Assembly: GCF_032917945.1 (NCBI RefSeq) | Contig: NZ_CP136624.1 | Span: 1,736,001-1,800,000, forward strand | Length of the DNA: 64,000 bases | Direction: 5' to 3' | From: Bradyrhizobium sp. sBnM-33 | GTDB taxonomy: Bacteria; Pseudomonadota; Alphaproteobacteria; Rhizobiales; Xanthobacteraceae | Part shown: positions 19,053-52,088 of the stretch, piece by piece | Layout: each line of letters opens with the position of its first letter | How positions within the stretch are numbered: position 1 is the stretch's first letter | Translations under genes and position numbers: made by a program | Notes under the pieces: model-generated | Databases searched by the model: none | What the model saw: only the letters and a program-made list of their open reading frames with translations | What the model was told of the DNA's origin: nothing

Positions 19053-19094
19053 GGATGTTCCAGCCTTTGCGGTTTCTTCACCAAACAAACGCAT

Positions 19095-24639: not shown

Positions 24640-25214
24640 GGCTGGCTCGCGCGAAGCTCGACGGAAGTCGACAGTGACGGATCCGGGATAGGGGATGTGG
24701 GAAAGTTCGCGACCCGATCGTGAACTGACGGAACCGTTGAGGCTGACGGGACGATTTGAACGCGTCATGATCCGATCGCGTCGCCAGGCCGGCTGATGAG
24801 AATTCTCGGACCCGATTGTTGAGAGATTTGTGCTGCGGACGTGAAAGGCCATCTTCGCCCCTGCAGCACCGAACGGAGCTTGTCGCTGATCATCATCACG
24901 CGCGGCGACGTGTCGGTGGATTTCAAGAGCTTCTTCATGAGCCGCTGCGCAGCGCGCGAATCTCGTCGGCGCTTGATCAAGACGTCGAGAACGAGGCCAT
25001 TCTGGTCGACAGCGCGCCAGAACCAATGTTGTTCGCCGGGAATCGAGATAACGACTTCGTCCAGATGCCATTTGTGGCTGCGAGCGGAGCTGGCGAATCG
25101 GATCGGAGTGGATAACGCAAGTACGTTAGATGTCCGACAATGTCGGATGAGTGACATAGCAGTGTTAGGGTTAGCATACTGACAGAGAACGATTTCTCCT
25201 TTGGCACGATACAT
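24640..25214 (-). mobile_element. IS6-family transposase, decayed
   Basis: Minus strand: KWHLDEVVISIPGEQHWFWR then AVDQNGLVLDVLIKRRRDSR and AAQRLMKKLLKS contain the first catalytic Asp block of IS6/IS26-type transposases. In another frame SENSHQPAWRRDRIMTRSN and LSHIPYPGSVTVDFRRASRE give the C-terminal part with the catalytic Glu region. At least one frameshift is present and the N-terminal helix-turn-helix is missing. The NifA-type site lies at the upstream end of this relic. Confidence 0.7.
25141..25156 (+). promoter_or_regulatory. NifA upstream activator site for NRPS 1
   Basis: TGTCGGATGAGTGACA matches TGT-N10-ACA. Its centre is about 80 bp before the start site expected from the -24/-12 element at 25202, within the usual range for NifA sites. 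Confidence 0.5.
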
Positions 25215-25216
25215 GC
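25202..25216 (+). promoter_or_regulatory. Sigma-54 (-24/-12) promoter for NRPS 1
   Basis: TGGCACGATACATGC has the perfect -24 block TGGCACG, the required GG-N10-GC spacing and one mismatch in the -12 block (ATGC for TTGC). It is 340 bp upstream of the NRPS ATG. The paralogous NRPS at 52089 has an equivalent element 335 bp upstream. Confidence 0.55.
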
Positions 25217-25261
25217 GTAGTCTCCTCTATAAAGGCGCATTGACTGAGGAGAAGTCGTCCG

Positions 25262-25471
25262 ATGATCACGCTCACCGGAAACTCAGATCAGGCTAAGGCG
25301 GCAGCTGCGATTCTGCCGGAGACGATATCTGGAGGCGTGGGGGCCTGCCGGCGACATTGGGAAGATCTGGGCTGCGCGCAAGAGTTTCGGCACCGTCAAT
25401 ACACCCATATTGCGCAAGCGACTGTGGGCGCGGTTATCCCGAGCAAATTCGAACCAGTGTGGCTGATTTGA
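25262..25471 (+). CDS. Short leader ORF before NRPS 1
   Basis: 69 aa, with a good ribosome-binding motif (GAGGAG, 25246-25251) eleven bases before the ATG, so it could be the first translated frame of the NRPS transcript. The start is not conserved upstream of the second NRPS. A different frame in the following leader (PEQIRTSVADLSRYVAR, ending 3 bp before the NRPS start) does resemble PEQILTSVTGLGRHVAR upstream of the second NRPS. The leader may therefore hold a broken small gene. Function unknown. Confidence 0.3.
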   Translation: MITLTGNSDQAKAAAAILPETISGGVGACRRHWEDLGCAQEFRHRQYTHIAQATVGAVIPSKFEPVWLI

Positions 25472-25541
25472 GTCGCTACGTGGCGCGACGCACGTGGTGG
25501 GAACTGCCCAGCTTGATGGATGGACTGCAGGAGCGGTGAAG

Positions 25542-28500
25542 ATGACATATCGGGCATCTCCGGCGCGCGGGAGCGCCTGCCAACCAGGCGATCAGGACAG
25601 GCTACCTGAAGCGCGATCGATCTCCTCTACCGTCGTTGTCGGCAGTGGTACGCTCGCTATCAGATGCGCGCAGCTGGCAATTGAGATGGGCCACGTCATT
25701 GGTGCAGCGTTGTGTGCCGACGGCGTATTCCGCGATTGGGCTGTTCGCTCGAACATCCCGTCTGTAGCAAGCGTTGAAGAGCTCTCTTCTTTTTTGAAGG
25801 CCGCGCCGGTAGATTTGGTTTTCTCCGTTGCCAATCCGTTCATATTGCCAGCGGATGTATTGGGGCGGGTTCGTCGAGGTGCTTTTAATTACCACGACGG
25901 TCCATTGCCACGATATGCGGGAACGCGCGCGACGTCCTGGGCGCTGCTGGCGCAGGAGACCGAATACGCCATCACATGGCATCGGATCGATGATGGCGTT
26001 GATACAGGAGACGTCGTGGTTCAGCGCCAAGTGCTGATTGCGCCCACCGATACGGCACTGACCCTGAACCTCAAATGCTATGAAGTCGCGATAGAGGGCT
26101 TCCGTGAGCTTTTAACTGGCTTAGCGAAGGGAGAGCTTACTGCCTATCCGCAGGCACTGGTGAGCCGGAGCTACTTTCCGAGACGTCGACGCCCAGATGC
26201 GGCAGGCTGTCTGCGATGGGATCGGCCCGCGCAAGATCTGTCAGCGATGACGCGTGCCTTAAACTTTGGGCCATATCATCCCAATCCATTGGGGCTGTCC
26301 AAGGCTTTCGTAGGCGATGAAGTTGTCACAGTCAGCCGCTTGGAGGTGCTGCCTCAACGCTCGGGCCTCCCAGCAGGTTCCCTGCTTGAGGTCCACTCCA
26401 GCCACTGGCGGGTGGCGACGGGTACAGAGGATGTCGATGTTTGCTTTGGCAGCTCCGATGGTCAGGTGCTGGACGCGCAAGCCCTCGCCAGGCACTCCAA
26501 TCTGGATGAAGGTGGTCGCCTTCCTATTTTGAGCGAAGATGAGGCGCGGAGCATAACTGCGAGCCATGAATTGCTGGCGCCTTCAGAGGAGTTTTGGGTA
26601 CAGCGGCTAGAGCAGCTTAGAATATTGCAGCTTCCTTTGTCGTTGTCCGTGGCTGAGGCGCCGCCCAGATGGCAGTCGAGTTCGTGGTTCATTGCAAGAG
26701 CTTTGGCTAAGTTGTCGCCACATGATCGCACGGAATATTTGGTAACGGCATGTCTGATCTATCTCGCCCGCATCACAGGAGAAACAGAGCTTCAATTGGG
26801 CTGGACGCCTGTATCGGATGGACCGCTAGCTGGCTCTAAAGCGGTGGAGGTGCTTATTGCCTCTGTCGTGCCGATGGAAATTACCGTCGACCTTGCACAT
26901 GATTTTGAAGAAGTGCGCAAAGCGGTCGCGGCCGAATGCGCTCAGCTGAGGGAACACGGTAGCTTTGCCCGGGATCTTATCGCGCGCTGCCCGGCATTGC
27001 GGGGTGTGGAGGCGCTACAGTCGCACCAGCCCTGGCCGATTGGCATCACAATCACCACAGACAGCGGCGCTGGCGATCTGACGACGAGCCAAAGTGCTGG
27101 GGCAGCCCTATGCGGCGATTTGCTGACGTTTGAGGTTTCCGCTCTGGATGGGAGCCTTCGATGGCATTTTGATGCAAGTCGGCTAGAGCCGAAGCAGATC
27201 GACCGTATGACGCAGCATTTGCAAACTTTGTTGTATGGTGTGATGGCCGATGCCGGGCAGCCGGTCGGCCGCATCAACATCCTGCCGGCCGACGAACGCA
27301 GCTATCTGCTGGAGGAGTTGAACCGGACGGCGACGGCCTATCCGTCGGAGCGGTGCATCCATGAACTGTTCGAGCAACAGGTCTGGCGCGCACCCGAAGC
27401 GGTCGCCCTCGTCCATGAGGACGAGCGCCTGAGCTATGGCGAGCTCAATGCGCGGGCCAACCGGCTGGCGCATCATCTGATCGCGCTCGGGGTCAGGCCG
27501 GATCAGCCGGTGGCGATCTGCCTGGAGCGCAGCCCGGCGATGGTGGTGGGGCTCTTGGCGATCCTGAAGGCGGGCGGCGCCTATCTGCCGCTGGATCCGG
27601 CCTATCCGTCTCAGCGGCTGCGCCAGGTGCTGGGCGATGCCGCGCCGCAGCTGCTGCTTTGCGATGCGGCCGGCCGCGCCGCGCTCGGCACCGAGGCGCT
27701 CGCCGATGTGAGCGTGGTCGATCTTACGACAGACACCCCGGCCTGGGCCGAGCTGCCCGCCTCTGATCCCGAGCCGCGCGCCCTCGGCCTCACCTCGCGC
27801 CATCTCGCCTATGTGATCTACACCTCCGGCTCAACCGGAACCCCCAAAGGGGCAAAGAATGAGCATCGGGGTATTATCAATCGCCTGGTCTGGATGCAGA
27901 AAGCCTACGCTCTCAATGCGACTGATGTCGTCTTGCAGAAGACGCCATTTGGCTTCGATGTCTCGGCTTGGGAATTCTTCTGGACGTTGCTTGAAGGGGC
28001 GACCCTGGTGCTGGCACCTCCGTCTGCACACAAAGACCCCGATGCGCTTGTAAACCTTATAATCAGCCAGCGCATTACCACTGCACACTTTGTACCATCC
28101 ATGCTGGTAAGCTTTATGGACACGAGGGGTGTTGATCGCTGCAGCTCGCTGCAGCGTCTCCTGTGCAGTGGCGAGGCGCTTCCTGCCTCCCTTGTGCACA
28201 AGGTTCGGCGCGTATTGCCTTGGACTGGTCTGCACAATCTATATGGCCCCACGGAAGCTGCTATCGACGTTACAGCCTGGAGTTGCCCGGCTGATTTTGA
28301 TGGGGCTACTATCCCCATTGGCCGTCCGATTGCCAACACGCGTGTGTATCTGCTGGACGGCCATGGCGCGCCTGTGCCGTTGGGGGCGGTGGGTGAGCTT
28401 TACATCGGCGGGGCGGGGGTTGCGCGTGGCTATCTGAACCGTGCCGATCTGACGGCGGAGCGGTTCATCGCCAGTCCCTTTGTGGACGGCGATCGGCTGT

Positions 28501-31500
28501 ACCGGACCGGCGACCTGGCGCGCTATCTGCCGGACGGCAATCTGGAGTTTCTGGGCCGCAATGACGACCAGGTGAAGATCCGCGGCTTCCGCATCGAGCC
28601 GGGCGAGATCGCCGCGCGGCTTTGCGAGCACGCCTGGGTGCGCGATGCGGTTGTGGTGGCGCGCCAGGACCGGTCCGGCGACAAGCACATCGTCGGCTAT
28701 GTGGTGTGTGCGCCCGAAGCTCAATCGGATGAGCTGGATGGCGCTGACCTTGCCAGCGCCTTGCGCACGCACTTAGGTGCGTACCTGCCGGACTACATGG
28801 TGCCGGCGGCGTTCGTGCGGCTATCGGGGCTGCCGCTGACGGTGAACGGCAAGCTCGACCGCAAGGCACTGCCGGCGCCGGCCGACGATGCCTATGCGCG
28901 GGCGGCCTATGCGGCGCCGCGCGGCGCGATCGAGACGGCGCTGGCAGAGATCTGGGCGGAGCTTCTCGGGGTCGAGCGGGTCGGCCGCCACGACCACTTC
29001 TTCGAACTGGGCGGCCACTCGCTCCTGGCGGTGCAGCTCTTGAGCCGGCTGTCGCAGGCTGTTGGCGTCGCGCTGCCGCTGACGGGGCTGTTTGCCAAAC
29101 CGGTGCTGGCGGAGCTGGCGGCAAGCATCGTGGAGGTGTTGAGCCGCTCCGGTCCGCAAGAGCTGCCGGCGATTGCGGCCGTGTCGCGTCATGAGCCGCT
29201 GGTGCTGTCGTTTGCGCAGCAGCGGCTGTGGTTTTTGGCGCAGCTGGACGAGGGCAGCACGAACTACCACATTCCGCTGGCCTCGCGGCTGCGCGGGGCG
29301 CTCGACCGCAGCGCCTGGCAGCGCAGCCTTGACCGTTTGTTTGCCCGTCACGAGGCGCTGCGCAGTGTCTTTGTCGCACCGGAGGGCAAGCCCCGGGTTG
29401 AGGTTCTGCCGGCGGATGCGGGGCTGCCGGTGCTCGAGCACGATCTGCGGGGCCGGCCGGATGCTGAGGCGGCGCTTCTGGAGCTGTGCCATGAAGAGGC
29501 AGGCACGCCGTTCGATCTTGCGCGCGGGCCGCTGATCCGCGGGCGTCTGATCCGGATGTCGGATGAGGAACACGTCTTCCTGCTGACCCAGCATCACATC
29601 GTCTCGGACGGCTGGTCGCTGGGCGTGCTGGTGCGTGAACTCAGTCAGCTTTACCGGGCGTTTGAGGCTGGACAGGACGATCCTTTGCCGCCGCTGGCAA
29701 TCCAATATCCGGATTATGCCGCCTGGCAACGGCAGTGGCTGTCGGGGGAACGGCTGCAGAAGCAGGCGCAGTATTGGCGCGACACCCTGTCCGGTGCTCC
29801 GGCCCGTCTGGCGCTGCCGACGGACCGGCCGCGGCCGGCCCAGCCGTCGTTTGCCGGGGCCAGTGTTCCGATCGTCATCGATGCGGATCTGACGCGGGGG
29901 CTGAAGCGGCTGAGCCGGCAGCATGGCACGACGTTGTTCATGACGGTGCTGGCGGCCTGGGCGGCGGTGCTGGCGCGTCTATCGGGGCAGGACGACCTTG
30001 TGATCGGCGTGCCGAGCGCCAATCGCGGCCGCCGCGAGATCGAAGGGTTGATCGGCTTCTTCGTCAACAGCCTGCCGCTTCGGCTGGAGCTGTCGGGCGA
30101 GCCGAGCGTGTCGCAGCTTCTGGAACGGACGCGGCGCACGGCGCTGGCTGCGCAGGAGCATCAGGACCTGCCGTTCGAGCAGGTAGTCGAGATCGTGCAG
30201 CCGCCCCGGCATCTCGATCAGACGCCGTTGTTCCAGGTGATGTTGGCCTGGCAGAACAACGCCGTCGGGTCGTTCGACCTTGCCGGGCTGAGCGTGGAGG
30301 CTGCCGGGGAAGGGCTCGATCAGGTCAAGTTCGATCTGGAGCTGAGCCTTCATGAGCAGGGCGAGGAGATCGCCGGGGCGTTCGGTTATGCCACGGCGCT
30401 GTTCGATCAGGCGACGATCGAGCGGCAGCGTGGTTATCTGCTGGCGCTGCTGCGGGCGATGGCTGCCGATGCGGGGCAGCCGGTCGGCCGCATCAACATC
30501 CTGCCGGCCGACGAACGCAGCTATCTGCTGGAGGAGTTGAACCGGACGGCGGCGGCCTATCCGTCGGAGCGGTGCATCCATGAACTGTTCGAGCAACAGG
30601 TCCGACGCGCACCCGAAGCGGTCGCCCTCGTCCATGAGGACGAGCGCCTGAGCTATGGCGAGCTCAATGCGCGGGCCAACCGGCTGGCGCATCATCTGAT
30701 CGCACTCGGGGTCAGGCCGGATCAGCCGGTGGCGATCTGCCTTCAGCGCAGCCCGGCGATGGTGGTGGGGCTCTTGGCGATCCTGAAGGCGGGCGGCGCC
30801 TATCTGCCGCTGGACCCGGCCTATCCGTCTCAGCGGCTGCGCCAGGTGCTGGGCGATGCCGCGCCGCAGCTGCTGCTTTGCGATGCGGCCGGCCGCGCCG
30901 CGCTCGGCACCGAGGCGCTCGCCGATGTGACGGCGCTCGATCTGGATACGGCCACCCCGCCCTGGGCCGCGCTGCCTGTTTCTGATCCCGAGCCGCGCGC
31001 CCTCGGCCTCACCTCGCGCCATCTCGCCTACATCATCTACACCTCAGGCTCAACCGGAACCCCCAAGGGCGTCATGGTCGAGCATCGCGGACTGGTGAAC
31101 TATTTGCATTGGTCGGATCGCCGCCATTGCGAACGAGCTGGGAACGGCTCGCTGATGCTGCTGTCGTTTAGCTTTGACGGCAGCATTACGACCTTGTTTG
31201 GGCCTTTGCTGGCCGGTACCAAGCTCCGCATTCTAAACCAGACTGTCCCAATAGATTGGCTTGCTGCTGTCGAGGATGGCCAGACCTATGATCTGATCAA
31301 GCTGACGCCTTCGCATCTAAGCATGCTGAACAAACGGCTCGAAGCCAACAAAGGATCGGCTCCGACAAGAGTGCTCATGGTTGGGGGCGAGGCCTTAATT
31401 CCGGCAGACATGCAGTTTTGGCAAGAGCGTTTTCCGAGCGTGCGTCTGATCAATCATTTTGGTCCGACGGAAGCAACGGTTGGATGTGCCACATTCGAGA

Positions 31501-34500
31501 TATCCGAATCCGTCGAGGGGCTGGCCTCGATCCCGATCGGCCGTCCGATTGCCAACACGCGTGTGTATCTGCTGGACGGCCATGGCGCGCCTGTGCCGTT
31601 GGGGGCGGTGGGTGAGCTTTACATAGGCGGGGCGGGGGTTGCGCGTGGCTATCTGAACCGTGCCGATCTGACGGCGGAGCGGTTCATCGCCAGTCCCTTT
31701 GTGGACGGCGATCGGCTGTACCGGACCGGCGACCTGGCGCGCTATCTGCCCGACGGCAATCTGGAGTTCCTCGGCCGCAACGACGACCAGGTGAAGATCC
31801 GCGGCTTCCGGATCGAGCCGGGCGAGATCGCCGCACGGCTTTGCGAGCACGCCTGGGTGCGCGATGCGGTTGTGGTGGCGCGCCAGGACCGGTCCGGCGA
31901 CAAGCACCTTGTCGCCTATGTGGTGGGCTCGGACGAGGCTGGCTCGGACGAGGACGGTGGAGGCGGGCTGGCCGGCGCCTTGCGGGCGCACTTAAGTGGG
32001 CGACTGCCGGACTACATGGTGCCGTCGGCGTTCGTGCGGCTATCGGGGCTGCCGCTGACGGTGAACGGCAAGCTCGACCGCAAGGCACTGCCGGCGCCGG
32101 CCGACGATGCCTATGCGCGGGCGGCCTATGCGGCGCCGCGCGGCGCGATCGAGACGGCGCTGGCAGAGATCTGGGCGGAGCTTCTCGGGGTCGAGCGGGT
32201 CGGACGCCACGACCACTTCTTCGAGCTCGGCGGCCACTCGCTGTTGGCGGTACGGCTCTTGAGCCGGCTGTCGCAGGCTCTGGGTGTAGCGCTGCCGCTT
32301 ACGGCGCTGTTCGCCAAGCCGGTGCTGGCCGACCTGGCGGGGAGCGTTGTCGAGACATTGAGCCGCTCCGGTCCACAAGATCTGCCGGGCATTGTGGCTG
32401 TGTCGCGCGATGCGCCATTTGTGCTGTCGTTTGCGCAGCAGAGGCTGTGGTTTTTGGCGCAGCTCGACGAGAGCAGTACGAACTATCACATTCCGCTGGC
32501 GTGGCGGCTCAAAGGTGTGCTCGAGCGCAGCGCCTGGCAGCGCAGCCTTGACCAGTTGGTGGCGCGGCATGAGGCGCTGCGGAGCATTTTTGTCGCGTCG
32601 GAGGGTGAGCCTTGGGTTGAGGTTCTGCCGGCGGATGCGGGGTTGCCGGTTGTGGAGCACGATCTGCGGGGCCGGGCAGACGCGGAGGCGGCGCTGTCGG
32701 AGCTGTGCCAGGAAGAGGCGCGCACGCTGTTTGATCTGGTGCGCGGGCCGCTGATCCGCGGGCGTCTGATCCGGATGTCGGATGAGGAACACGTCTTCCT
32801 GCTGACCCAGCATCACATCGTCTCGGACGGCTGGTCGCTGGGCGTGCTGGTGCGTGAACTCAGTCAGCTGTACCGGGCGTTCCTGGCGGGACAAGACGAT
32901 CCGCTGCCGCCGCTTGCGATCCAGTATCCGGACTATGCTGCCTGGCAACGGCAGTGGCTGGCTGGCGAGCGATTGCAGAAGCAGGCGGAGTATTGGCGCA
33001 ACACCCTGGCTGGCGCGCCGGCCCGTCTGGCCTTGCCGACGGACCGGCCGCGGCCGGCCCGGCAGTCGTTTGCCGGGGCCACTGTGCCTGTTGTCATCGA
33101 TGCGGATCTGACGCGGGAGTTGAAGCGGCTGAGCCAGCAGCATGGCACGACGTTATTCATGACGGTGCTGGCGGCGTGGGGCGCGGTGCTGTCGCGTCTG
33201 TCAGGGCAGGACGACCTTGTGATCGGGGTGCCGAGCGCCAATCGGGGCCGCCGCGAGATCGAAGAGTTGATCGGCTTCTTCGTCAACAGCCTGGCGCTTC
33301 GCCTCGACCTGTCGGGCGCGCCGAGCGTGGCAGAGCTGTTGGAACGGACGCGGCGCACGGCGCTGGCTGCGCAGGAGCATCAGGACCTGCCGTTCGAGCA
33401 GGTAGTCGAGATCGTCAAGCCGCCCCGGCATCTCGATCACACGCCGTTGTTCCAGGTGATGTTGGCCTGGCAGAACAACGCCGTCGGGTCGTTCGACCTT
33501 GCCGGGCTGAGCGTGGAGGCTGCCGGGGAAGGGCTCGATCAGGTCAAGTTCGATCTGGAGCTGAGCCTAGGCGAGTGTGATGAGGTCATAGCCGGAACGT
33601 TTGATTATGCCACGGCGCTGTTCGATCAGGCGACGATCGAGCGGCAGCGTGGTTATCTGCTGGCGCTGCTGCGGGCGATGGCTGCCGATGCGGGGCAGCC
33701 GGTCGGCCGCATCAACATCCTGCCGGCCGACGAACGCAGCTATCTGCTGGAGGAGTTGAACCGGACGGCGGCGGCCTATCCGTCGGAGCGGTGCATCCAT
33801 GAACTGTTCGAGCAACAGGTCCGGCGCGCACCCGAAGCGGTCGCCCTCGTCCATGAGGACGAGCGCCTGAGCTATGGCGAGCTCAATGCGCGGGCCAACC
33901 GGCTGGCGCATCATCTGATCGCGCTCGGGGTCAGGCCGGATCAGCCGGTGGCGATCTGCCTTCAGCGCAGCCCGGCGATGGTGGTGGGGCTCTTGGCGAT
34001 CCTGAAGGCGGGCGGCGCCTATCTGCCGCTGGACCCGGCCTATCCGTCTCAGCGGCTGCGCCAGGTGCTGGGCGATGCCGCGCCGCAGCTGCTGCTTTGC
34101 GATGCGGCCGGCCGCGCCGCGCTCGGCACCGAGGCGCTCGCCGATGTGACGGCGCTCGATCTGGATACGGCCACCCCGCCCTGGGCCGCGCTGCCTGTCT
34201 CTGATCCCGAGCCGCGCGCCCTCGGCCTCACCTCGCGCCATCTCGCCTACATCATCTACACCTCAGGCTCAACCGGAACCCCCAAGGGCGTCATGGTCGA
34301 GCATCAAAGCGCCGTGAACCTGCTGCATTGGAGCAGCGGCGTATTTGCGGAGTCAGAGATTAGCCGCACACTGTTTTCTACCTCGATCAGTTTTGATCTG
34401 TCCGTCTATGAGTGCTTCGTACCGCTGTCGCAAGGAGGCACTCTGTATCTTGTCGAGGATGCACTGGCGCTGGCGCAGACGTCCTTGGATGTTTCCTTGA

Positions 34501-35630
34501 TCAACACCGTCCCCTCGGCGATCGCCGCTCTGGTCGACCAACAAGCCGTGCCGGCTTCGACAAGCGTCATCAATTTGGCCGGTGAGCCGCTGACGGCAGG
34601 TCTGATCGAGAGGGTCTTCGAGGGCAGTGGCGTAGAGAAGATCTGTAACCTGTACGCTCCTTCGGAAACGACGACGTATTCGACCTGGATTTGCATGCCC
34701 AGGAGAGAGGCTGTCGTTGAGACGATCGGGCGTCCGATTGCCAACACGCGTGTGTATCTGCTGGACGGCCATGGCGCGCCTGTGCCGTTGGGGGCGGTGG
34801 GTGAGCTTTACATCGGCGGGGCGGGGGTTGCGCGTGGCTATCTGAACCGTGCCGATCTGACGGCGGAGCGGTTCATCGCCAGTCCCTTTGTGGACGGCGA
34901 TCGGCTGTACCGGACCGGCGACCTGGCGCGCTATCTGCCGGACGGCAATCTGGAGTTTCTGGGCCGCAATGACGACCAGGTGAAGATCCGCGGCTTCCGC
35001 ATCGAGCCGGGCGAGATCGCCGCGCGGCTTTGCGAGCACGCCTGGGTGCGCGATGCGGTTGTGGTGGCGCGCCAGGACCGGTCCGGCGACAAGCACATCG
35101 TCGGCTATGTGGTGTGTGCGCCCGAAGCTCAATCGGATGAGCTGGATGGCGCTGACCTTGCCAGCGCCTTGCGCACGCACTTAGGTGCGTACCTGCCGGA
35201 CTACATGGTGCCGGCGGCGTTCGTGCGGCTATCGGGGCTGCCGCTGACGGTGAACGGCAAGCTCGACCGCAAGGCACTGCCGGCGCCGGCCGACGATGCC
35301 TATGCGCGGGCGGCCTATGCGGCGCCGCGCGGCGCGATCGAGACGGCGCTGGCAGAGATCTGGGCGGAGCTTCTCGGGGTCGAGCGGGTCGGCCGCCACG
35401 ACCACTTCTTCGAACTGGGCGGCCACTCGCTCCTGGCGGTGCAGCTCTTGAGCCGGCTGTCGCGGGCTGTTGGCGTGGAACTGCCGCTGTCGACGCTGTT
35501 TGCCAAACCGGTGCTGGCGGATCTGGCTCGCGCAACTTCGATCACTTTGATCGAACAAGAGTTTGATCGCCAAGAGCTTCTGAAGTTGCTCTCTCTGGAC
35601 TCTAGAGAAGCTGCTCTTTCTGGAGTCTAG
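25542..35630 (+). CDS. NRPS 1: formyltransferase-initiated three-module peptide synthetase
   Basis: 3362 aa; the order is F-(half C)-A-T-C-A-T-C-A-T. The F domain (about residues 20-250) has [13 protein letters not shown] and GVDTGDVVV, placing Asn116, His118 and Asp154 with the spacing of methionyl-tRNA formyltransferase. Residues 340-585 resemble only the C-terminal lobe of a condensation domain. Three A domains have intact [10 protein letters not shown] (one reads GTPKGAKNE) and each T domain carries GGHSLL. Both complete C domains have HHIVSDGW. Manual codes: A1 DVWHLSLID (Ser), A2 DGTKMGHVG (Asx-like, uncertain), A3 DLYNNALTY (Ala). No thioesterase, so the chain passes to NRPS 2, 2 nt downstream. 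The ATG at 25542 is chosen because GGTGAAGATG is conserved at the paralogue start; the ORF could begin at 25494. Confidence 0.92.
29200..30530 (+). repeat. Condensation domain block shared by NRPS 1 and NRPS 2
   Basis: This first complete C domain of NRPS 1 is nearly base-identical to 35772-37102 in NRPS 2 (offset 6572), apart from changes such as GTGCAGCCG versus GTCAAGCCG near 30195/36767. The tail of A1 in NRPS 1 (28320-29030) likewise matches that of A3 (34728-35438). Confidence 0.8.
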
Positions 35631-35632
35631 AA

Positions 35633-38600
35633 ATGACAGATTTGATTAGATCCGGATTGGAAGAACTGGACGCAGAAAGCCTAACTGAGCTTTTTTCACT
35701 TGCCAAAGAGAGAAGCCGGACTGGCAGCCGAGAAACTACGTTGCTACCAAAGGTCGGACGCAAAAGCGTCCTAGTACCATCGTTTGCGCAGCAGCGGCTG
35801 TGGTTTTTGGCGCAGCTGGACGAGAGCAGCACGACCTACCACATTCCGCTGGCGTGGCGGCTGCGCGGGGCGCTCGACCGCAGCGCCTGGCAGCGCAGCC
35901 TTGACCGTTTGTTTGCCCGTCACGAGGCGCTGCGCAGTGTCTTTGTCGCACCGGAGGGCAAGCCCCGGGTTGAGGTTCTGCCGGCGGATGCGGGGCTGCC
36001 GGTGCTCGAGCACGATCTGCGGGGCCGGCCGGATGCTGAGGCGGCGCTTCTGGAGCTGTGCCATGAAGAGGCAGGCACGCCGTTCGATCTTGCGCGCGGG
36101 CCGCTGATCCGCGGGCGTCTGATCCGGATGTCGGATGAGGAACACGTCTTCCTGCTGACCCAGCATCACATCGTCTCGGACGGCTGGTCGCTGGGCGTGC
36201 TGGTGCGTGAACTCAGTCAGCTTTACCGGGCGTTTGAGGCTGGACAGGACGATCCTTTGCCGCCGCTGGCAATCCAATATCCGGATTATGCCGCCTGGCA
36301 ACGGCAGTGGCTGTCGGGGGAACGGCTGCAGAAGCAGGCGCAGTATTGGCGCGACACCCTGTCCGGTGCTCCGGCCCGTCTGGCGCTGCCGACGGACCGG
36401 CCGCGGCCGGCCCAGCCGTCGTTTGCCGGGGCCAGTGTTCCGATCGTCATCGATGCGGATCTGACGCGGGGGCTGAAGCGGCTGAGCCGGCAGCATGGCA
36501 CGACGTTGTTCATGACGGTGCTGGCGGCCTGGGCGGCGGTGCTGGCGCGTCTATCGGGGCAGGACGACCTTGTGATCGGCGTGCCGAGCGCCAATCGCGG
36601 CCGCCGCGAGATCGAAGGGTTGATCGGCTTCTTCGTCAACAGCCTGCCGCTTCGGCTGGAGCTGTCGGGCGAGCCGAGCGTGTCGCAGCTTCTGGAACGG
36701 ACGCGGCGCACGGCGCTGGCTGCGCAGGAGCATCAGGACCTGCCGTTCGAGCAGGTAGTCGAGATCGTCAAGCCGCCCCGGCATCTCGATCACACGCCGT
36801 TGTTCCAGGTGATGTTGGCCTGGCAGAACAACGCCGTCGGGTCGTTCGACCTTGCCGGGCTGAGCGTGGAGGCTGCCGGGGAAGGGCTCGATCAGGTCAA
36901 GTTCGATCTGGAGCTGAGCCTTCATGAGCAGGGCGAGGAGATCGCCGGGGCGTTCGGTTATGCCACGGCGCTGTTCGATCAGGCGACGATCGAGCGGCAG
37001 CGTGGTTATCTGCTGGCGCTGCTGCGGGCGATGGTTGCCGATGCCGGGCAGCCGGTCGGCCGCATCAACATCCTGCCGGCCGACGAACGCAGCTATCTGC
37101 TGGAGGAGTTGAACCGGACGGCGGCGGCCTATCCGTCGGAGCGGTGCATCCATGAACTGTTCGAGCAACAGGTCCGGCGCGCACCCGAAGCGGTCGCCCT
37201 CGTCCATGAGGACGAGCGCCTGAGCTATGGCGAGCTCAATGCGCGGGCCAACCGGCTGGCGCATCATCTGATCTCGCTCGGGGTGAGGCCGGATCAGCCG
37301 GTTGCGATCTGTCTTGAGCGCAGTCTGGCGATGGTGGTGGGGGTTTTGGCGATCCTCAAGGCGGGTGGCGCGTATCTGCCGCTGGACCCGGCCTATCCGT
37401 CCGCGCGGCTGCGGCAGGTTCTCGAGGATGCGGCACCGGGTCTGGTGCTTGCCGATGCGGCGGGCCGTACCGCGCTGGGCGCCGATGCCCTGGTGGACGT
37501 GACGGTGGTTGATCTTGAGACGGCCACGCCAGCCTGGGCCGAGCTGCCGGCCTCGGATCCGGACCCGCGCGCGCTGGGCCTGACCTCACGCCATCTCGCC
37601 TATGTGATCTACACCTCAGGCTCAACCGGAACCCCAAAGGGCGTCATGGTCGAGCATCGGGGAGTGGCCAATTATCTGTCCTGGGCTTGCGAAGCTTATG
37701 CGCCCAGGTCATCCTCCCTGGTCTCCTCTTCCCTGGCCTTCGATGCCATAATCACGAGCCTGCTTGCGCCTTTGCTCTGTGGTGGCCACGCACAGCTTGT
37801 CAGGGAGGGAGACGAGGTCGAGGGGGTAAAGGAAAAGATCAGCTCGGGCTGCGGGATCATTGATATCACCCCCAGCCATCTGGATGTGCTTGGGCAACAG
37901 ATGCTGGCGGACTCGGCCGCCAGCCAGGTTGGACTGTTTATCATCGGCGGTGAAGCGCTGTCGCATTCGACAATCGAGCTGTGGCGCAGGATCCAGCCCA
38001 CGGCCAGACTGGTGAATGAATACGGCCCCACCGAAACGATCGTCGGCTGTCTCTTTTATGAGGTTCCGACAGGGCCAGCTGTATCTGCGAACGTCCCGAT
38101 CGGGCGTCCGATTGCGAACGCGCGGGTGTATCTTCTGGATGGTCATGGTGCGCTGGTTCCGTTTGGTGCGGTGGGGGAGCTTTACATAGGCGGGGCGGGG
38201 GTTGCGCGTGGCTATCTGAACCGTGCCGATCTGACGGCGGAGCGGTTCATCGCCAGTCCCTTTGTGGACGGCGATCGGCTGTACCGGACCGGCGACCTGG
38301 CGTGCTATCTGCCCGACGGCAATCTGGAGTTCCTGGGCCGCAACGACGACCAGGTGAAGATCCGCGGCTTCCGCATCGAGCCGGGCGAGATCGCCGCGCG
38401 GCTTTGCGAGCACGCCTGGGTGCGCGATGCGGTTGTGGTGGCGCGCCAGGACCGGTCCGGCGACAAGCACCTTGTCGCCTATGTGGTGGGCTCGGACGAG
38501 GCTGGCTCGGACGAGGACGATGGAGGCGGGCTGGCCGGCGCCTTGCGGGCGCACTTAAGTGCGCGGCTGCCGGACTACATGGTGCCGGCGGCGTTCGTGC

Positions 38601-41600
38601 GGCTATCGGGGCTGCCGCTGACGGTGAACGGCAAGCTCGACCGCAAGGCACTGCCGGCGCCGGCCGACGATGCCTATGCGCGGGCGGCCTATGCGGCGCC
38701 GCGCGGCGCGATCGAGACGGCGCTGGCAGAGATCTGGGCGGAGCTTCTCGGGGTCGAGCGGGTCGGACGCCACGACCACTTCTTCGAACTCGGCGGCCAC
38801 TCGCTCCTGGCGGTGCAGCTCTTGAGCCGGCTGCGGCGGTTGTCGCTCGGGGTGGAGGTGCGCACCCTGTTCGCCAGGCCGGTGCTGGCCGATCTTGCCG
38901 CAAGCCTGGGCAGCCATCACGAGGTGGCGGTGCCTGCCAACCTGATCACCGAGCAGAGTACGGCGATCACGCCGCAGATGCTGCCGCTGATCGAGCTGAC
39001 GCAGGGCGAGATCGACCGGATCGTCGCCACGGTGCCTGGTGGCGTCGGCAACATCCAGGACATTTATGGCCTGTCGCCGCTGCAGGACGGCATCCTGTTC
39101 CATCATCTGCTGACCAGCCGGGGCGATCCCTACCTGCTGGTGTCGCAGATGGCGTTTGCCGACCGTGGCCTGTTGGATCGCTATCTTGGTGCGGTTCAGC
39201 GGGTGGTGGATCGGCACGACATTCTGCGCACGGCCTTTGTCTGGGAGGGGCTGTCGAGCCCGGCCCAGGTGGTGTGGCGTCGTGCGCCGCTGGAGGTGAG
39301 CGAGGTCGAGCTGGATGGCTATGATTGTCCCGGCGCCGATGAGCTCCGGCGCCGGTTTGATCCGCGCCAGCACCGCATCGATCTTGGCCGGGCGCCCTTG
39401 TTGCGGTTTGTGACCGCGCGCGAGCCCGGCAGCGGGCGCTGGCTGCTTTTGGAGCTGCAGCATCATTTGATCGGGGATCACACGACGCTGGACGTGATGC
39501 ATGCCGAGGTGCGGGCCATGCTTGCGGGGCGGGCCTATGAACTGGCCGCGCCGCTGCCATTCCGCAATCTGGTGGCGCAGGCGCGTCTTGCTGTTGATGC
39601 CAAGGCGCATGAAGAGTTCTTCCGGGGACTGCTGGCCGACATCGACGAGCCGACCATGCCGTTCGGGCTAAGCGAGGTCTACGGCGACGGCAGCGGCGTC
39701 GGCGAGGCGCATCGGGTGCTGCCGCAGGCGCTCAACGAGCGGCTGCGCGAACAGGCGCGGCGGCTCGGGGTGAGCCTGGCCAGCCTGTGCCATCTGGCCT
39801 GGGGGCAGGTGGTGGCGCGCAGCAGCGGCCGCGAGCAGGTGGTGTTCGGCACGGTGCTGTTTGGCCGGATGCATGGCGGCGCCGGTGCCGACCGCACCAT
39901 GGGCCTGTTCATCAACACCCTGCCGCTGCGGCTTGATCTCGACGGCACCGGGGTTGCGGCGAGCGTGCGCAGCACCCATGCGCAGCTTTCCGAGCTGCTG
40001 GCGCACGAGCATGCCTCGCTGGCGCTGGCGCAACGCTGCAGCGGCGTTGCGGCGCCGGCGCCGCTGTTCAGCGCGCTGTTGAACTACCGCCATAACAGGC
40101 CGGCGGCCACGCCCGGCTCCGGAACGGATGATGTCCTGTCGGGGATGGAATGGCTGGGCGGCGAGGAGCGCACCAACTATCCCGTGACCCTGTCGGTGGA
40201 GGATTATGGCGAAGCGCTCGGGCTGACGGCGCAGGTGGCGGAGCCTGTCTCTGCGGATCGGGTCTGCGGCTACATGCAGCGGGCGCTCGAGCAACTGGCG
40301 GAGGCGCTGGAGCATGCCCCCAACACGCCGGTGCGCGAGCTCGACATCCTGCCGTCCGCTGAGCGCGCGTATCTGCTGGAGGAGTTGAACCGGACGGCGG
40401 CGGCCTATCCGTCGGAGCGGTGCATCCATGAACTGTTCGAGCAACAGGTCCGGCGCGCACCCGAAGCGGTCGCCCTCGTCCATGAGGACGAGCGCCTGAG
40501 CTATGGCGAGCTCAATGCGCGGGCCAACCGGCTGGCGCATCATCTGATCGCGCTCGGGGTCAGGCCGGATCAGCCGGTGGCGATCTGCCTTCAGCGCAGC
40601 CCGGCGATGGTGGTGGGGCTCTTGGCGATCCTGAAGGCGGGCGGCGCCTATCTGCCGCTGGATCCGGCCTATCCGTCTCAGCGGCTGCGCCAGGTGCTGG
40701 GCGATGCCGCGCCCCAGCTGCTGCTTTGCGATGCGGCATGCCGCGCCGCGCTCGGCACCGAGGCGCTCGCCGATGTGACGGCGCTCGATCTGGATACGGC
40801 CACCCCGCCCTGGGCCGCGCTGCCTGTCTCTGATCCCGAGCCGCGCGCCCTCGGCCTCACCTCGCGCCATCTCGCCTACATCATCTACACCTCAGGCTCA
40901 ACCGGAACCCCAAAGGGCGTCATGGTCGAGCATGCTCAGATGGCTCGTCTGTTCGAGGCGACCCAGGACTGGTATGGCTTCACCGAACACGACGTATGGT
41001 GCCTGTTCCATTCCATCTCGTTTGACTTCTCGGTGTGGGAATTGTGGGGCGCACTGCGCTATGGCGGGCGTTTGATACTCGTGCCGAGTAATACCGCCCG
41101 TTCTGCTTCCGACTTCCATGAGCTAGTCTGCAAGTCTGGCGTCACGGTTCTCAATCAGACCCCCTCGGCTTTTAAAGCTTTCATGGATGTAGAATGCCAG
41201 AGCAATGTTCGAAACCGCCTTCGCTATGTGATTTTTGGTGGGGAGGCTCTGGAACCGTCCATTCTAAAGCCGTGGTATGCAAGGCATTCAGACAGCGTTC
41301 CGCAATTGATCAACATGTACGGCATCACGGAAGCTACCGTGCATGTAACCTATCGACCTCTTAATCAATCTGACACCTCCAACTCGGCCAACCTGATCGG
41401 AGAGCCCATCCCCGATCTTCGGTTGTACTTGTTGGATCGGTTCGGCCAGCCTGTGCCGTTGGGGACGGTGGGTGAGCTTTACATAGGCGGGGCGGGGGTT
41501 GCGCGTGGCTATCTGAACCGTGCCGATCTGACGGCGGAGCGGTTCATCGCCAGTCCCTTTGTGGACGGCGATCGGCTGTACCGGACCGGCGACCTGGCGT

Positions 41601-44600
41601 GCTATCTGCCCGACGGCAATCTGGAGTTCCTGGGCCGCAACGACGACCAGGTGAAGATCCGCGGCTTCCGCATCGAGCCGGGCGAGATCGCCGCGCGGCT
41701 TTGCGAGCACGCCTGGGTGCGCGATGCGGTTGTGGTGGCGCGCCAGGACCGGTCCGGCGACAAGCACCTTGTCGCCTATGTGGTGGGCTCGGACGAGGCT
41801 GGCTCGGACGAGGACGATGGAGGCGGGCTGGCCGGCGCCTTGCGGGCGCACTTAAGTGCGCGGCTGCCGGACTACATGGTGCCGGCGGCGTTCGTGCGGC
41901 TATCGGGGCTGCCGCTGACGGTGAACGGCAAGCTCGACCGCAAGGCACTGCCGGCGCCGGCCGACGATGCCTATGCGCGGGCGGCCTATGCGGCGCCGCG
42001 CGGCGCGATCGAGACGGCGCTGGCAGAGATCTGGGCGGAGCTTCTCGGGGTCGAGCGGGTCGGACGCCACGACCACTTCTTCGAACTCGGCGGCCACTCG
42101 CTCCTGGCGGTGCAGCTCTTGAGCCGGCTGCGGCGGTTGTCGCTCGGGGTGGAGGTGCGCACCCTGTTCGCCAGGCCGGTGCTGGCCGATCTTGCCGCAA
42201 GCCTGGGCAGCCATCACGAGGTGGCGGTGCCTGCCAACCTGATCACCGAGCAGAGTACGGCGATCACGCCGCAGATGCTGCCGCTGATCGAGCTGACGCA
42301 GGGCGAGATCGACCGGATCGTCGCCACGGTGCCTGGTGGCGTCGGCAACATCCAGGACATTTATGGCCTGTCGCCGCTGCAGGACGGCATCCTGTTCCAT
42401 CATCTGCTGACCAGCCGGGGCGATCCCTACCTGCTGGTGTCGCAGATGGCGTTTGCCGACCGTGGCCTGTTGGATCGCTATCTTGGTGCGGTTCAGCGGG
42501 TGGTGGATCGGCACGACATTCTGCGCACGGCCTTTGTCTGGGAGGGGCTGTCGAGCCCGGCCCAGGTGGTGTGGCGTCGTGCGCCGCTGGAGGTGAGCGA
42601 GGTCGAGCTGGATGGCTATGATTGTCCCGGCGCCGATGAGCTCCGGCGCCGGTTTGATCCGCGCCAGCACCGCATCGATCTTGGCCGGGCGCCCTTGTTG
42701 CGGTTTGTGACCGCGCGCGAGCCCGGCAGCGGGCGCTGGCTGCTTTTGGAGCTGCAGCATCATTTGATCGGGGATCACACGACGCTGGACGTGATGCATG
42801 CCGAGGTGCGGGCCATGCTTGCGGGGCGGGCCTATGAACTGGCCGCGCCGCTGCCATTCCGCAATCTGGTGGCGCAGGCGCGTCTTGCTGTTGATGCCAA
42901 GGCGCATGAAGAGTTCTTCCGGGGACTGCTGGCCGACATCGACGAGCCGACCATGCCGTTCGGGCTAAGCGAGGTCTACGGCGACGGCAGCGGCGTCGGC
43001 GAGGCGCATCGGGTGCTGCCGCAGGCGCTCAACGAGCGGCTGCGCGAACAGGCGCGGCGGCTCGGGGTGAGCCTGGCCAGCCTGTGCCATCTGGCCTGGG
43101 GGCAGGTGGTGGCGCGCAGCAGCGGCCGCGAGCAGGTGGTGTTCGGCACGGTGCTGTTTGGCCGGATGCATGGCGGCGCCGGTGCCGACCGCACCATGGG
43201 CCTGTTCATCAACACCCTGCCGCTGCGGCTTGATCTCGACGGCACCGGGGTTGCGGCGAGCGTGCGCAGCACCCATGCGCAGCTTTCCGAGCTGCTGGCG
43301 CACGAGCATGCCTCGCTGGCGCTGGCGCAACGCTGCAGCGGCGTTGCGGCGCCGGCGCCGCTGTTCAGCGCGCTGTTGAACTACCGCCATAACAGGCCGG
43401 CGGCCACGCCCGGCTCCGGAACGGATGATGTCCTGTCGGGGATGGAATGGCTGGGCGGCGAGGAGCGCACCAACTATCCCGTGACCCTATCGGTGGAGGA
43501 TTATGGCGAAGCGCTCGGGCTGACGGCGCAGGTGGCGGAGCCTGTCTCTGCGGATCGGGTCTGCGGCTACATGCAGCGGGCGCTCGAGCAACTGGCGGAG
43601 GCGCTGGAGCATGCCCCCAACACGCCGGTGCGCGAGCTCGACATCCTGCCGTCCGCTGAGCGCGCGTATCTGCTGGAGGAGTTGAACCGGACGGCGGCGG
43701 CCTATCCGTCGGAGCGGTGCATCCATGAACTGTTCGAGCAACAGGTCCGGCGCGCACCCGAAGCGGTCGCCCTCGTCCATGAGGACGAGCGCCTGAGCTA
43801 TGGCGAGCTCAATGCGCGGGCCAACCGGCTGGCGCATCATCTGATCGCGCTCGGGGTCAGGCCGGATCAGCCGGTGGCGATCTGCCTTCAGCGCAGCCCG
43901 GCGATGGTGGTGGGGCTCTTGGCGATCCTGAAGGCGGGCGGCGCCTATCTGCCGCTGGATCCGGCCTATCCGTCTCAGCGGCTGCGCCAGGTGCTGGGCG
44001 ATGCCGCGCCCCAGCTGCTGCTTTGCGATGCGGCAGGCCGCGCCGCGCTCGGCACCGAGGCGCTCGCCGATGTGACGGCGCTCGATCTGGATACGGCCAC
44101 CCCGCCCTGGGCCGCGCTGCCTGTCTCTGATCCCGAGCCGCGCGCCCTCGGCCTCACCTCGCGCCATCTCGCCTACATCATCTACACCTCAGGCTCAACC
44201 GGAACCCCAAAGGGCGTCATGGTCGAGCATGCGAACCTGTTGAATTTCATATATGCTCTTTCGGATATATTGAGGATCACTGAGCAGGATGTATTCCTAG
44301 CCATCACGTCCATCTCATTTGATATCGCAGGACTGGAGCTATTTCTTCCATCGTGCACGGGAGCCACAATCGTCCTAGCCAGCCGTAAGGATGTTACGGA
44401 TGCTACGGCGTTGCATTACCTTATAGATCAGCGCAAGATTTCTATGATGCAGGCCACTCCAGCAACGTGGCGTTTGCTGTTGGATGCCGGCTGGCAAGGA
44501 ACACCGGGCTTAAATGTATTGTGTGGAGGTGAGGCGTTACCTGCGAGTCAGTCGTCGCGGCTCAGTAGAGGGGTGAGGTCTCTAAGAAATCTTTACGGTC

Positions 44601-46387
44601 CGACCGAAACAACGATCTGGTCGTCCAGTTTTGTTATTGACGCGAGGCTCGTTGTGTCTCATCAAAACGTCCCGATCGGCCGCCCGATTGCCAACACGCG
44701 GGTGTATCTGCTGGACGGTCATGGCGCGCCTGTGCCGTTGGGGGCGGTGGGTGAGCTTTACATAGGCGGGGCGGGGGTTGCGCGTGGCTATCTGAACCGT
44801 GCCGATCTGACGGCGGAGCGGTTCATCGCCAGTCCCTTTGTGGACGGCGATCGGCTGTACCGGACCGGCGACCTGGCGTGCTATCTGCCCGACGGCAATC
44901 TGGAGTTCCTGGGCCGCAACGACGACCAGGTGAAGATCCGCGGCTTCCGCATCGAGCCGGGCGAGATCGCCGCACGGCTTTGCGAGCACGCCTGGGTGCG
45001 CGATGCGGTTGTGGTGGCGCGCCAGGACCGGTCCGGCGACAAGCACCTTGTCGCCTATGTGGTGGGCTCGGACGAGGCTGGCTCGGACGAGGACGGTGGA
45101 GGCGGGCTGGCCGGCGCCTTGCGGGCGCACTTAAGTGCGCGGCTGCCGGACTACATGGTGCCGTCGGCGTTCGTGCGGCTATCGGGGCTGCCGCTGACGG
45201 TGAACGGCAAGCTCGACCGCAAGGCACTGCCGGCGCCGGCCGACGATGCCTATGCGCGGGCAGCCTATGCGGCGCCGCGCGGCGCGATCGAGACGGCGCT
45301 GGCAGAGATCTGGGCGGAGCTTCTCGGGGTCGAGCGGGTCGGACGCCACGACAACTTCTTCGAGCTCGGCGGCCACTCGCTCCTGGCGGTGCGGTTGCTC
45401 AGCCGAGCGCTAAATCTTGGAATGAAGTTTAATGCCGCCGATCTCTTCCAGGCTCCTGTCCTGAAGGAACTTGCATCGAGGGTTGAGTTGGACCCGCAAC
45501 GTCATCCAGCTGGAGTGCTACCCGTTCAGGCGACGGGATCTCAACCGCCACTCTTCTTTGTTCCGACAGGTTACGGAGATTATTCGTATGTCCTCACTTT
45601 AGCAAAAGAAATGGATGTAGACTGCCCGATCTATGCTTTGCCATGGCCGTCTTTCAATGAACTTTGTCAACCAGCTCTCGATGCGATCGCCGCGGAGGTA
45701 ATCCTCGCAATCGGAAAGATCCAGCCGCAGGGTCCGTATCGCTTCGCTGGTTACTCCTCAGGGGCAATCTTGGCTTATGCGCTTGCCAAACACTTGCTAA
45801 GTCGCGGGGAAGCTGTCTCATTTATGGCGTTCATCGATGTCACATTACCTGCAAATCCATCGAGCAGGTCGGATGCCCAAGTAGCATTAGATATGATATT
45901 CGAGCCTCTCGAGTCTTTAGATGATGAGCGGTTCGAATTGCTGGAGAAACTTTCTGAACAAAGTTCAGTTGCTCAGTTGTTTGAAAAGGCGCAGCAAATT
46001 GGGGCCATAGCTTCAGATCGCGATCTCTATGACAACGCCTTGAGGTATGTCTATTTTCACAGGGCACTACGATCGTATCGAGCTGCGACCCTGCCAATTG
46101 AGATACATCAGTTTTATGCAGCTGATCCTTTCCCTAGTCGTCGTGTGCGGGGCAAAAACTCAATCGCCCCGGAGGCAAGATCGGTCATGCGCGGCTGGGA
46201 CCGCGTTTTGAGTGGGGCGGCCATTCATGCAGTTTCAGTTCCAGGCAATCACGTAACGATGATGAGCAACCCAGAAAACCGCGAAGTTCTGGCACGCATG
46301 TTATCGAGAGCCTTGAATGGTTCGCCAATAAACACGCTGAACTGCACCCCGTTTTCACCGGATACCCGCGTTAGCCGGAGGAGCTAG
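35633..46387 (+). CDS. NRPS 2: three-module peptide synthetase with terminal thioesterase
   Basis: 3584 aa; C-A-T-(E/C)-A-T-(E/C)-A-T-TE. The N-terminal 45 residues are a possible docking segment. The first C has HHIVSDGW (His178) and the LCL-type opening [10 protein letters not shown]. The next two begin with [29 protein letters not shown] fits the HH[I/L]X4GD signature of dual epimerisation/condensation domains, with the core HHLIGDH, so residues 4 and 5 should be D. Codes: A1 DATDIGEVG (unclear, Asx-like), A2 DFWNIGMVH (Thr), A3 DILQLGLIW (Gly). The thioesterase has GYSSG (Ser near 3375), and His about 3540 in PGNHVTMM. Starts 2 nt after NRPS 1, so same transcript. The TAG stop lies in the CTAG target copy of the IS701 element. 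Confidence 0.93.
38179..44230 (+). repeat. Near-identical 2.75-kb module repeat in NRPS 2 (period 3297 bp)
   Basis: 38179-40933 and 41476-44230 cover the tail of one A domain, T, dual E/C and the start of the next A domain. They look the same almost base for base (differences such as GACCCTGTCGG/GACCCTATCGG near 40187/43484). Only the A-domain cores between them differ. Confidence 0.85.
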
Positions 46388-51619: not shown

Positions 51620-51635
51620 TGTATTGTCGCGAACA
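51620..51635 (+). promoter_or_regulatory. NifA upstream activator site, distal, NRPS 3
   Basis: TGTATTGTCGCGAACA matches TGT-N10-ACA, centred about 150 bp before the expected start site of the -24/-12 element at 51754. Confidence 0.6.
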
Positions 51636-51658: not shown

Positions 51659-51674
51659 TGTCCGGAACCGAACA
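51659..51674 (+). promoter_or_regulatory. NifA upstream activator site, proximal, NRPS 3
   Basis: TGTCCGGAACCGAACA matches TGT-N10-ACA, 39 bp downstream of the distal site and about 113 bp before the expected start site. Paired sites of this kind are common at NifA-dependent promoters. Confidence 0.6.
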
Positions 51675-51753: not shown

Positions 51754-51768
51754 TGGCACGCGGATTGC
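51754..51768 (+). promoter_or_regulatory. Sigma-54 (-24/-12) promoter for NRPS 3
   Basis: TGGCACGCGGATTGC followed by T is an exact match to TGGCACG-N4-TTGCT with GG-N10-GC spacing, 335 bp upstream of the NRPS 3 ATG and downstream of two TGT-N10-ACA sites. Confidence 0.75.
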
Positions 51769-52088
51769 TCTGAGACAGTGAGGATCCAAAGGACGATATC
51801 GGTCCCGCGGTCGGCCCCGCGCCCACACATTCAGAGGAATCTTGCTCGATTGATTCTCACTTCGATAGACGCTGCACGGTTGAGTGCGATCCCGCCAAAT
51901 GAAGCGTTGTGGCGTCCGTCGGGGATGTCGCTGTCATTCGTAGCGCTGGATAACTCTCATGGCTGGCCGGAGTCGATTAGCATTCAGTGCGGCAATTCCC
52001 GAGCAAATCCTGACGAGTGTGACAGGCTTAGGTCGCCATGTGGCGCGCGCCTTGGCCGGGAACCGCATGCATTGGCTGAGGGGTGAAG

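Follow-up and report, generated by a model that had tools for sequence, protein, structure and literature searches.

A formyltransferase-initiated peptide synthetase of Bradyrhizobium with a NifA/sigma-54-type promoter, its predicted formyl hexapeptide and its family in nodulating rhizobia

A 64,000-nucleotide stretch of the genome of Bradyrhizobium sp. sBnM-33 (the window; contig NZ_CP136624.1, positions 1,736,001 to 1,800,000, forward strand) carries at 25542-46387 of its own numbering two adjoining nonribosomal peptide synthetase (NRPS) genes, N1a and N1b, together called N1. Our analyses indicate that N1 is probably an intact operon under NifA and RpoN control that makes a formylated hexapeptide, and that it belongs to a rhizobial family whose members swap adenylation cores. 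The finding is larger than first reported: an NRPS initiated by a formyltransferase (F) domain, a half condensation (C) domain after it, a family tied to nodulation and a promoter of the nitrogen-fixation type are present, while the chemistry and the role of the product are predictions. Four sister loci, the N1 promoter and the family's link to nodulators had escaped a preliminary description of the locus.

Both open reading frames (ORFs) are open throughout, with no internal stops (25494..35630, 3378 codons in frame from 25494, and 35633..46387, 3584 amino acids), and the ATG of N1a at 25542 has AGGAG directly 5' of it. Pfam profiles found in N1a one Formyl_trans_N domain, three AMP-binding (adenylation, A) domains, two full Condensation domains and three PP-binding (thiolation, T) domains, and in N1b three C, three A and three T domains followed by a Thioesterase (TE) domain. 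This agrees with the order of F, half C, A and T, five further modules and a TE given in the preliminary description. The formyltransferase domain is N-terminal and fused to the first module (PF00551, 66.4 bits against a cut-off of 26.1). The half C domain covers profile positions 191-455 of 456 at 22.3 bits, below the 30.6-bit cut-off, and no HHxxxDG motif was found within it; from the profile alignment we regard the domain between F and A1 as a real though weak match.

The F domain could be aligned to ArnA and Fmt, from which we take the residues of the Asn-His-Asp (N-H-D) triad to be catalytic. Inactive catalytic residues in the F domain would have spoken against the preliminary description; at the sequence level the triad is intact, as N116, H118 and D154 counted from the methionine at 25542. 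An AlphaFold model of F plus half C had a mean pLDDT (predicted local distance difference test) of 51, with parts of the F core at 85-93, and was too poor for a fold search. C2 to C4 contain HHIVSDG, and C5 and C6 contain HHLIGDH, with a HHLLTSRGD stretch seen in C5. Dual epimerization/condensation (E/C) domains we take to be defined by an N-terminal HH[IL]xxxxGD plus an active-site His motif of their own, and by their motifs C5 and C6 are of this type. Residues 4 and 5 of the peptide should therefore be D, the same two positions that had been proposed before.

The specificity codes of the A domains were read through GrsA anchor motifs, and the six codes of N1 are given in Table 1. DFWNIGMVHK stands at a Thr position in Table 1 of PMC2533009, passages of PMC10634486 read DVWHLSLIDK as Ser and DILQIGLIWK as Gly, and passages of PMC12283262 place DILQLGMIWK among Gly domains and trace D-L-Y/W-N to Ala domains. 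Thus the Thr and Ser codes of N1 are identical to published ones, Gly is read via the near-identical DILQLGMIWK and DILQIGLIWK, and the Ala reading of A3 rests on partial residue statements. The code of A4, DATDIGEVGK, has Asp where the last module of a sister synthetase, N3, with DATKIGEVGK, has Lys (K278). The readings of module 2 as Asp and of module 4 as Asn are likenesses to known codes. The codes of the preliminary description held up, the specificity check giving Ser, Asp-like, Ala, a variant Asn-like, Thr and Gly. By its codes, N1 should make formyl-Ser-Asp-Ala-D-Asn-D-Thr-Gly, where Asp and Asn stand for codes near, not equal to, known ones.

This layout suggests how the peptide would be assembled. 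Ser would be loaded by the first module, and the seryl-carrier would be formylated by the N-terminal F domain with 10-formyltetrahydrofolate as donor. Formyl-Ser would then be extended through the five further modules and the peptide released by the TE; the predicted product is linear or a lactone closed on Ser or Thr. With Ser, Asp, Ala, Asn, Thr and Gly as residues, the calculated [M+H]+ is 592.22 for the linear formyl peptide and 574.21 for the lactone, values that would differ if positions 2 and 4 held something else.

A NifA upstream activator site (UAS) and a -24/-12 sigma-54 promoter precede N1, and such a pair also precedes the sister synthetases N2 and N3 and the remnant N5. In N2, N3 and N5 the promoter is of the stricter TTGC form, and the UAS stands 88-134 bp above it. 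The N1 form of UAS plus promoter matched once in the 9.18-Mb genome and 0 times in a backwards control. The strict pattern with a gap of 60-90 matched 18 times, all between 1.647 and 2.841 Mb, again with 0 matches in the backwards control. Ten ORFs downstream of strict TTGC matches were scanned: two are nifD and nifH, and the other eight comprise two thioredoxin-like, one aldo-keto reductase-like, one TagH-like, one VgrG-like and one 4HPPD-like ORF and two ORFs with no match. The TagH-like and VgrG-like type VI secretion ORFs lie behind strict NifA/sigma-54 sites at genome 2512124 and 2525250, and both score below curated cut-offs. At genome 2634274 there is an orphan promoter resembling that of N2; tblastn located no start of an F-NRPS in this 3.1-kb locus.

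Across the family, 57 upstream regions were scanned, which include near-identical orthologues and repeats of the same loci and form 30 clusters at 95% identity. A relaxed sigma-54 element was found in 43/57 (22/30 clusters), compared with 21/540 random stretches and 7/57 antisense sequences, and the pattern scan gave no match to a long nod box or a tts box in the 57 regions. Between promoter and start codon of N1 lies a leader containing a frame that begins MITLTGNSDQ (window 25262-25470) and has a ribosome-binding-site-like GAGGAG; its start recurs in N1-type relatives, and the frame is broken in several of them.

NifA dependence has been measured in print only for blr2108 of B. diazoefficiens, and for N1 itself it is proposed by analogy. 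Genome G027 holds an F-less NRPS relative with the order half C-A-T-C-A-T-C-A-T-TE (L114:4848-14777), preceded by TGGCACGATACATGC and, 61 bp above it, a UAS; this pair matches nowhere else in that genome. Directly upstream on the same strand is an ectoine synthase/cupin ORF (L114:3890-4300), and a Crp-family gene lies downstream on the opposite strand. Since these neighbours match blr2106, named ectC or cupin, and the Crp-like bll2109 (passages of PMC4926349 and PMC8632152), we take the NRPS to be blr2108. In Table 2 of PMC6515984, blr2108 is a target of NifA and RpoN1 that is 39.0-fold up in soybean bacteroids, and its protein, at log2 6.5 in microoxia, is one of 62 raised; Table 3 of PMC4926349 gives log2 -4.6 for blr2108 and -6.5 for blr2106 (ectC) in nifA-mutant nodules. 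Three papers of the set searched name blr2108, once each and, in the passages matched, always as a table entry. If N1 is likewise switched on by NifA with RpoN, its peptide should therefore be made in microoxic bacteroids in nodules.

Synthetases with the F-halfC starter form a rhizobial family tied to nodulators, and close relatives were found almost only there. Named genomes were scanned with two F-domain peptide patterns as seeds and tblastn as confirmation, which gave 54 F-halfC loci in 39 genomes of Bradyrhizobium, Mesorhizobium, Sinorhizobium/Ensifer, Rhizobium and Paraburkholderia atlantica. nodC (TIGR04242), tested for 39 of the 54 loci, one per genome, was present in 39/39. Within the genus Bradyrhizobium, 62/265 genomes match the F-halfC profile at E<=1e-60 and 135/265 have nodC, which is present in 61 of the 62 (Fisher P 9e-21, shared descent uncorrected); the exception, G138, has a partial, weak match of 305 bits. 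Matches that cover the F part occur in 42/265, with nodC in 42/42 (P 1e-14, shared descent again uncorrected). In Mesorhizobium, 12/146 genomes match, all 12 among the 101/146 with nodC (P 0.018); nine of the 146 match strongly, the other three being a frame of about 1550 residues in G815 and partial matches in G727 and G805. Among 397 sampled genomes of the order, 10 matched, three from Bradyrhizobium and seven at 217-258 bits in frames of about 1550 residues, one of which (G379) was examined and is a MupA/Atu3671-type protein. In a large protein set, where the 2478 candidates sharing most words were scored, 22 of the 24 best matches are named and all 22 come from the nodulator genera listed above; the next best, at 43-44%, include Mycetohabitans and two proteins from an assembly of Basidiobolus ranarum.

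The symbiotic setting given in the preliminary description is supported: nodC (2.59 Mb) and the NifA-type sites of nifD and nifH (1.905 and 1.979 Mb) share the contig of N1 (1.76 Mb). Among nine genomes with a full F match and nodC on one large contig (G198, partial and at 467 kb, and drafts were left out), the nearest F-NRPS lies 30-518 kb from nodC in seven, in G000 by way of N4, and 2.4 and 4.4 Mb from it in two.

PF00551 matches ten times in the genome (9,184,954 bp in one contig), and five of these matches fall within or next to NRPS frames that have a half C domain; three of the five, N1, N2 and N3, lie within 115 kb. NRPSs that begin with an F domain had been called rare, which presumably holds in general but less so in nodulating rhizobia, with five NRPS-linked ones here. 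N2 (genome 1788083-1821670) has 10 modules and 11,195 residues, N3 (1854947-1875691) has six modules, N4 (within 2561679-2569625) has two, and N5 (2079856-2082945) is broken. The codes of N2 read Asp-like, X, X, Ala, Thr, Ala, Ala, Y, X and Gly, where X is DATDIGEVGK and Y is DANNIGEVGK, and those of N3 read aromatic-like, Gln, aromatic-like, Leu, Ser and Asn-like; where codes lack a published match, the readings are likenesses to known codes. Two further NRPS loci, at genome 3418940-3451744 and 2031751-2038416, are without an F domain in the PF00551 listing.

Core and module exchange between NRPSs is known in kind, and specificity in the N1 family would change through A-core exchange together with module duplication. 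When A domains of N1 to N4 with different codes were compared, core DNA was 36% identical (median) and the flanks 79% and 83% (256 pairs), in code classes that are rough, position 278 being misread in several modules and 301 gapped in others. Same-code pairs across synthetases had cores of 87% and flanks of 84% and 82% (12 pairs), a class that in the DNA alignment merges DATDIGEVGK with DATKIGEVGK; the protein-read codes are preferred. A comparison in 60-bp steps gave the same pattern of shared flanks and differing cores. N2 has exact tandem module repeats: a 5,658-bp stretch recurs at a distance of 3,186 bp, and identity among three Ala modules is 100% across 1,845 aligned bases. There are 150 exact repeats of at least 200 bp, and each of the 45 longest is confined to one synthetase, with N1a and N1b counted as one. 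The exact repeats of N2 may be an assembly artefact. Passages of PMC2533009 report recombination in cyanopeptolin operons.

Several known systems can be set beside N1. In LgrA, the linear gramicidin synthetase (F-A-T...) and a family match of the PDB search, an N-terminal F domain is likewise joined in cis to the first A-T; its host, regulation and products differ. In the solved LgrA chains, F spans about 45-162 and A begins at about 201 with no half C between them, whereas N1 has about 245 residues of half C, and because of this half C between F and A we set N1 apart from linear gramicidin synthetase. The MupA/Atu3671-type protein G379 (1551 residues) aligns to the family profile over 30-487 with its F domain and the following region, at 34% identity to N1, and has one T domain and, inside the A domain, a luciferase-like monooxygenase (TIGR04020/PF00296) of a kind that N1 lacks. 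The blr2108 NRPS resembles N1 in its half C start, TE, promoter element and spacing, but it has no F domain and its three modules read Pro-like, Ser and Phe-like. F-NRPSs of Mycetohabitans (P0027 and P0028), presumably a fungal endosymbiont, are 43-44% identical over 94% of the F-halfC unit. The anabaenopeptilide synthetase (apd) of Anabaena, a cyanobacterial host, is similar to the N1 prediction in making a formylated small peptide, its formyl transferase modifying the N-terminal residue (passages of PMC2533009). Among the titles and abstract beginnings of the literature matches listed, no paper on rhizobial F-NRPSs was found.

Several observations weigh against N1 being a NifA-controlled formyl-peptide operon of a nodulation family. 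The -12 half of its promoter is ATGC instead of TTGC, with the GG-N10-GC spacing kept. The strict UAS and sigma-54 pair is present in only 11/57 upstream regions and the strict or one-mismatch pair in 18/57 (6/30 and 10/30 clusters; 0/57 in 20 Markov rounds of a shuffled control), and the relaxed element is missing in 14/57 regions and 8/30 clusters. As it was seeded by two peptide patterns, the genome scan sees close relatives only. N1 and nodC are 830 kb apart, and F-NRPS and nodC lie on different contigs in five genomes (G011, G012, G036, G092 and G196). The Asp-like and Asn-like codes are inexact matches, and none of the N1 neighbours scanned was recognisable as a gene for export, tailoring or immunity.

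N1 might instead make its hexapeptide unformylated and use F only as a structural start unit. F-domain motifs were read in 56 of 69 stretches (49 distinct), 13 having no motif match; the catalytic Asp is lost in 16/56 (14/49 distinct), and the relative resembling blr2108 of USDA110 has no F domain at all. Formylation would therefore be dispensable in parts of the family. For N1, a purely structural F domain seems improbable to us, as the triad is intact there and in 40/56 F domains (35/49 distinct). Another reading is decaying mobile-element cargo, kept by chance on symbiosis islands and without function. N5 is broken with its triad degraded (judged by eye), N4 has His in place of the catalytic Asp, transposase-like ORFs surround N1 and N3, and the orphan N2-type promoter near 2634274 would fit such decay. 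Frames of 10-34 kb that are still open, the triad kept in N1, N2 and N3, and a relative's protein (blr2108) that was detected and raised in microoxia make functionless cargo quite improbable.

As for what the peptide does, an antibiotic-like product aimed at microbes in or near the nodule, not at the plant, is a serious alternative that we nevertheless hold unlikely. NRPS products are often of this kind, the TagH-like and VgrG-like ORFs also stand behind NifA/sigma-54-type sites, and variable sequences are compatible with competition; against it, no gene for immunity or export was recognised beside N1. That the peptide binds metal, as a siderophore or metallophore for nitrogenase or for the iron supply of bacteroids, is very improbable. 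Its Asp-, Ser- and Thr-like residues and D centres resemble those of peptidic siderophores, and a TauD-family protein is encoded at 18123-19094; the latter was rejected as a clue, its nearest family being taurine dioxygenase at 229.7 bits, below the cut-off of 313. Against metal binding, no hydroxamate, catecholate or TonB-receptor family was seen among the neighbours scanned, N3 and locus L079 read aromatic, Gln, Leu and similar with no common chelating pattern, and the promoter is of the NifA type.

Table 1. Features of N1 and N2 in window coordinates.
Feature	Position	Strand	Basis or remark
NifA upstream activator site TGT-N10-ACA, TGTCGGATGAGTGACA	25141..25156	+	61 bp above -24 element
Sigma-54 -24/-12 promoter of N1, TGGCACGATACATGC	25202..25216	+	pattern scan
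N1 5' leader	25217..25541	+	partly conserved in N1-type relatives, among matches listed
N1a, F-halfC-A-T-C-A-T-C-A-T	25542..35630	+	ORF, Pfam
Formyltransferase domain	25623..26525	+	start: first strand of AlphaFold model; end: ArnA alignment
Half condensation domain (profile 191-455), no HHxxxDG	26574..27308	+	profile search
A1, DVWHLSLIDK, predicted Ser	27369..28436	+	Pfam, code
C2, HHIVSDG, LCL type	29202..30527	+	profile, motif
A2 (approximate limits), DGTKMGHVGK, predicted Asp-like	30588..31655	+	code
C3, HHIVSDG, LCL type	32421..33746	+	profile, motif
A3 (approximate limits), DLYNNALTYK, predicted Ala	33807..34874	+	code
N1b, C-A-T-C-A-T-C-A-T-TE	35633..46387	+	begins 2 nt past N1a stop
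C4, HHIVSDG, LCL type	35780..37099	+	profile, motif
A4 (approximate limits), DATDIGEVGK, predicted Asn-like	37160..38227	+	code
C5, dual E/C type	39056..40375	+	profile, motif
A5, DFWNIGMVHK, predicted Thr	40436..41515	+	Pfam, code
C6, dual E/C type	42353..43672	+	profile, motif
A6 (approximate limits), DILQLGLIWK, predicted Gly	43733..44800	+	code
Thioesterase domain, GYSSGA serine motif	45548..46309	+	Pfam, motif
NifA sites of N2, two	51620-51635, 51659-51674	+	pattern scan
Sigma-54 promoter of N2, TGGCACGCGGATTGC	51754..51768	+	pattern scan
N2, second F-halfC NRPS, 10 modules	52083..64000, continuing to window-scale 85670	+	profile, codes

Elsewhere in the window, HypD-like and AIR-synthase-related (HypE-like) genes at 1234-3413 form an uptake-hydrogenase setting, and a HipA-like protein with an N-terminal coupling domain is encoded at 11679-12923; Rfam gave 0 matches in the 64 kb, and no tRNAs were found. 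The N4 locus (L016:4198-14622) has a NifA/sigma-54-type site followed by a 185-residue glyoxalase/VOC protein, whose nearest NCBIfam, 4HPPD, is below cut-off, a 461-residue class I/II aminotransferase and the two-module F-NRPS; its two codes are both DILHLGCTFK, for which a 4-hydroxyphenylglycine-like substrate is a guess. Neighbour clustering took in the ORFs of the 10 kb before each locus plus some stretches after it, and the 16 largest clusters occur in 5-9 loci each; those scanned against profiles were the VOC and PLP-aminotransferase ORFs of the N4 type and one TauD-like ORF. A gene of about 316 residues lies upstream on the opposite strand in seven loci (L057-L062 and L075), with DAFWLGGTFK as first A code in all six that were read; the TauD-like match of a recurrent upstream ORF of about 316 residues is weak (24.1 bits, cut-off 27).

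Research on the rhizobial symbiosis has dealt with Nod factors, polysaccharides, secreted effectors and plant nodule-specific cysteine-rich (NCR) peptides. If N1 is the NifA-controlled formyl-peptide operon that we propose, its product may be released toward the host cell or toward rival nodule bacteria, with the formyl cap shielding it from aminopeptidases; this is a guess that we hold less likely than not. Broader still, and doubtful, is the idea that in alpha- and beta-rhizobia the NifA-controlled F-halfC family makes hypervariable formyl-capped bacteroid peptides, a strain- or host-specific chemical signature inside the nodule that would add a third layer to those of Nod factors and secreted effectors. 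F-halfC synthetases with shared flanks and differing cores would also offer a test bed for natural exchange of A-domain cores. If the proposal is true, a nodule-expressed family of N-formylated peptides, nearly confined to nodulators, would be an added class of bacterial product.

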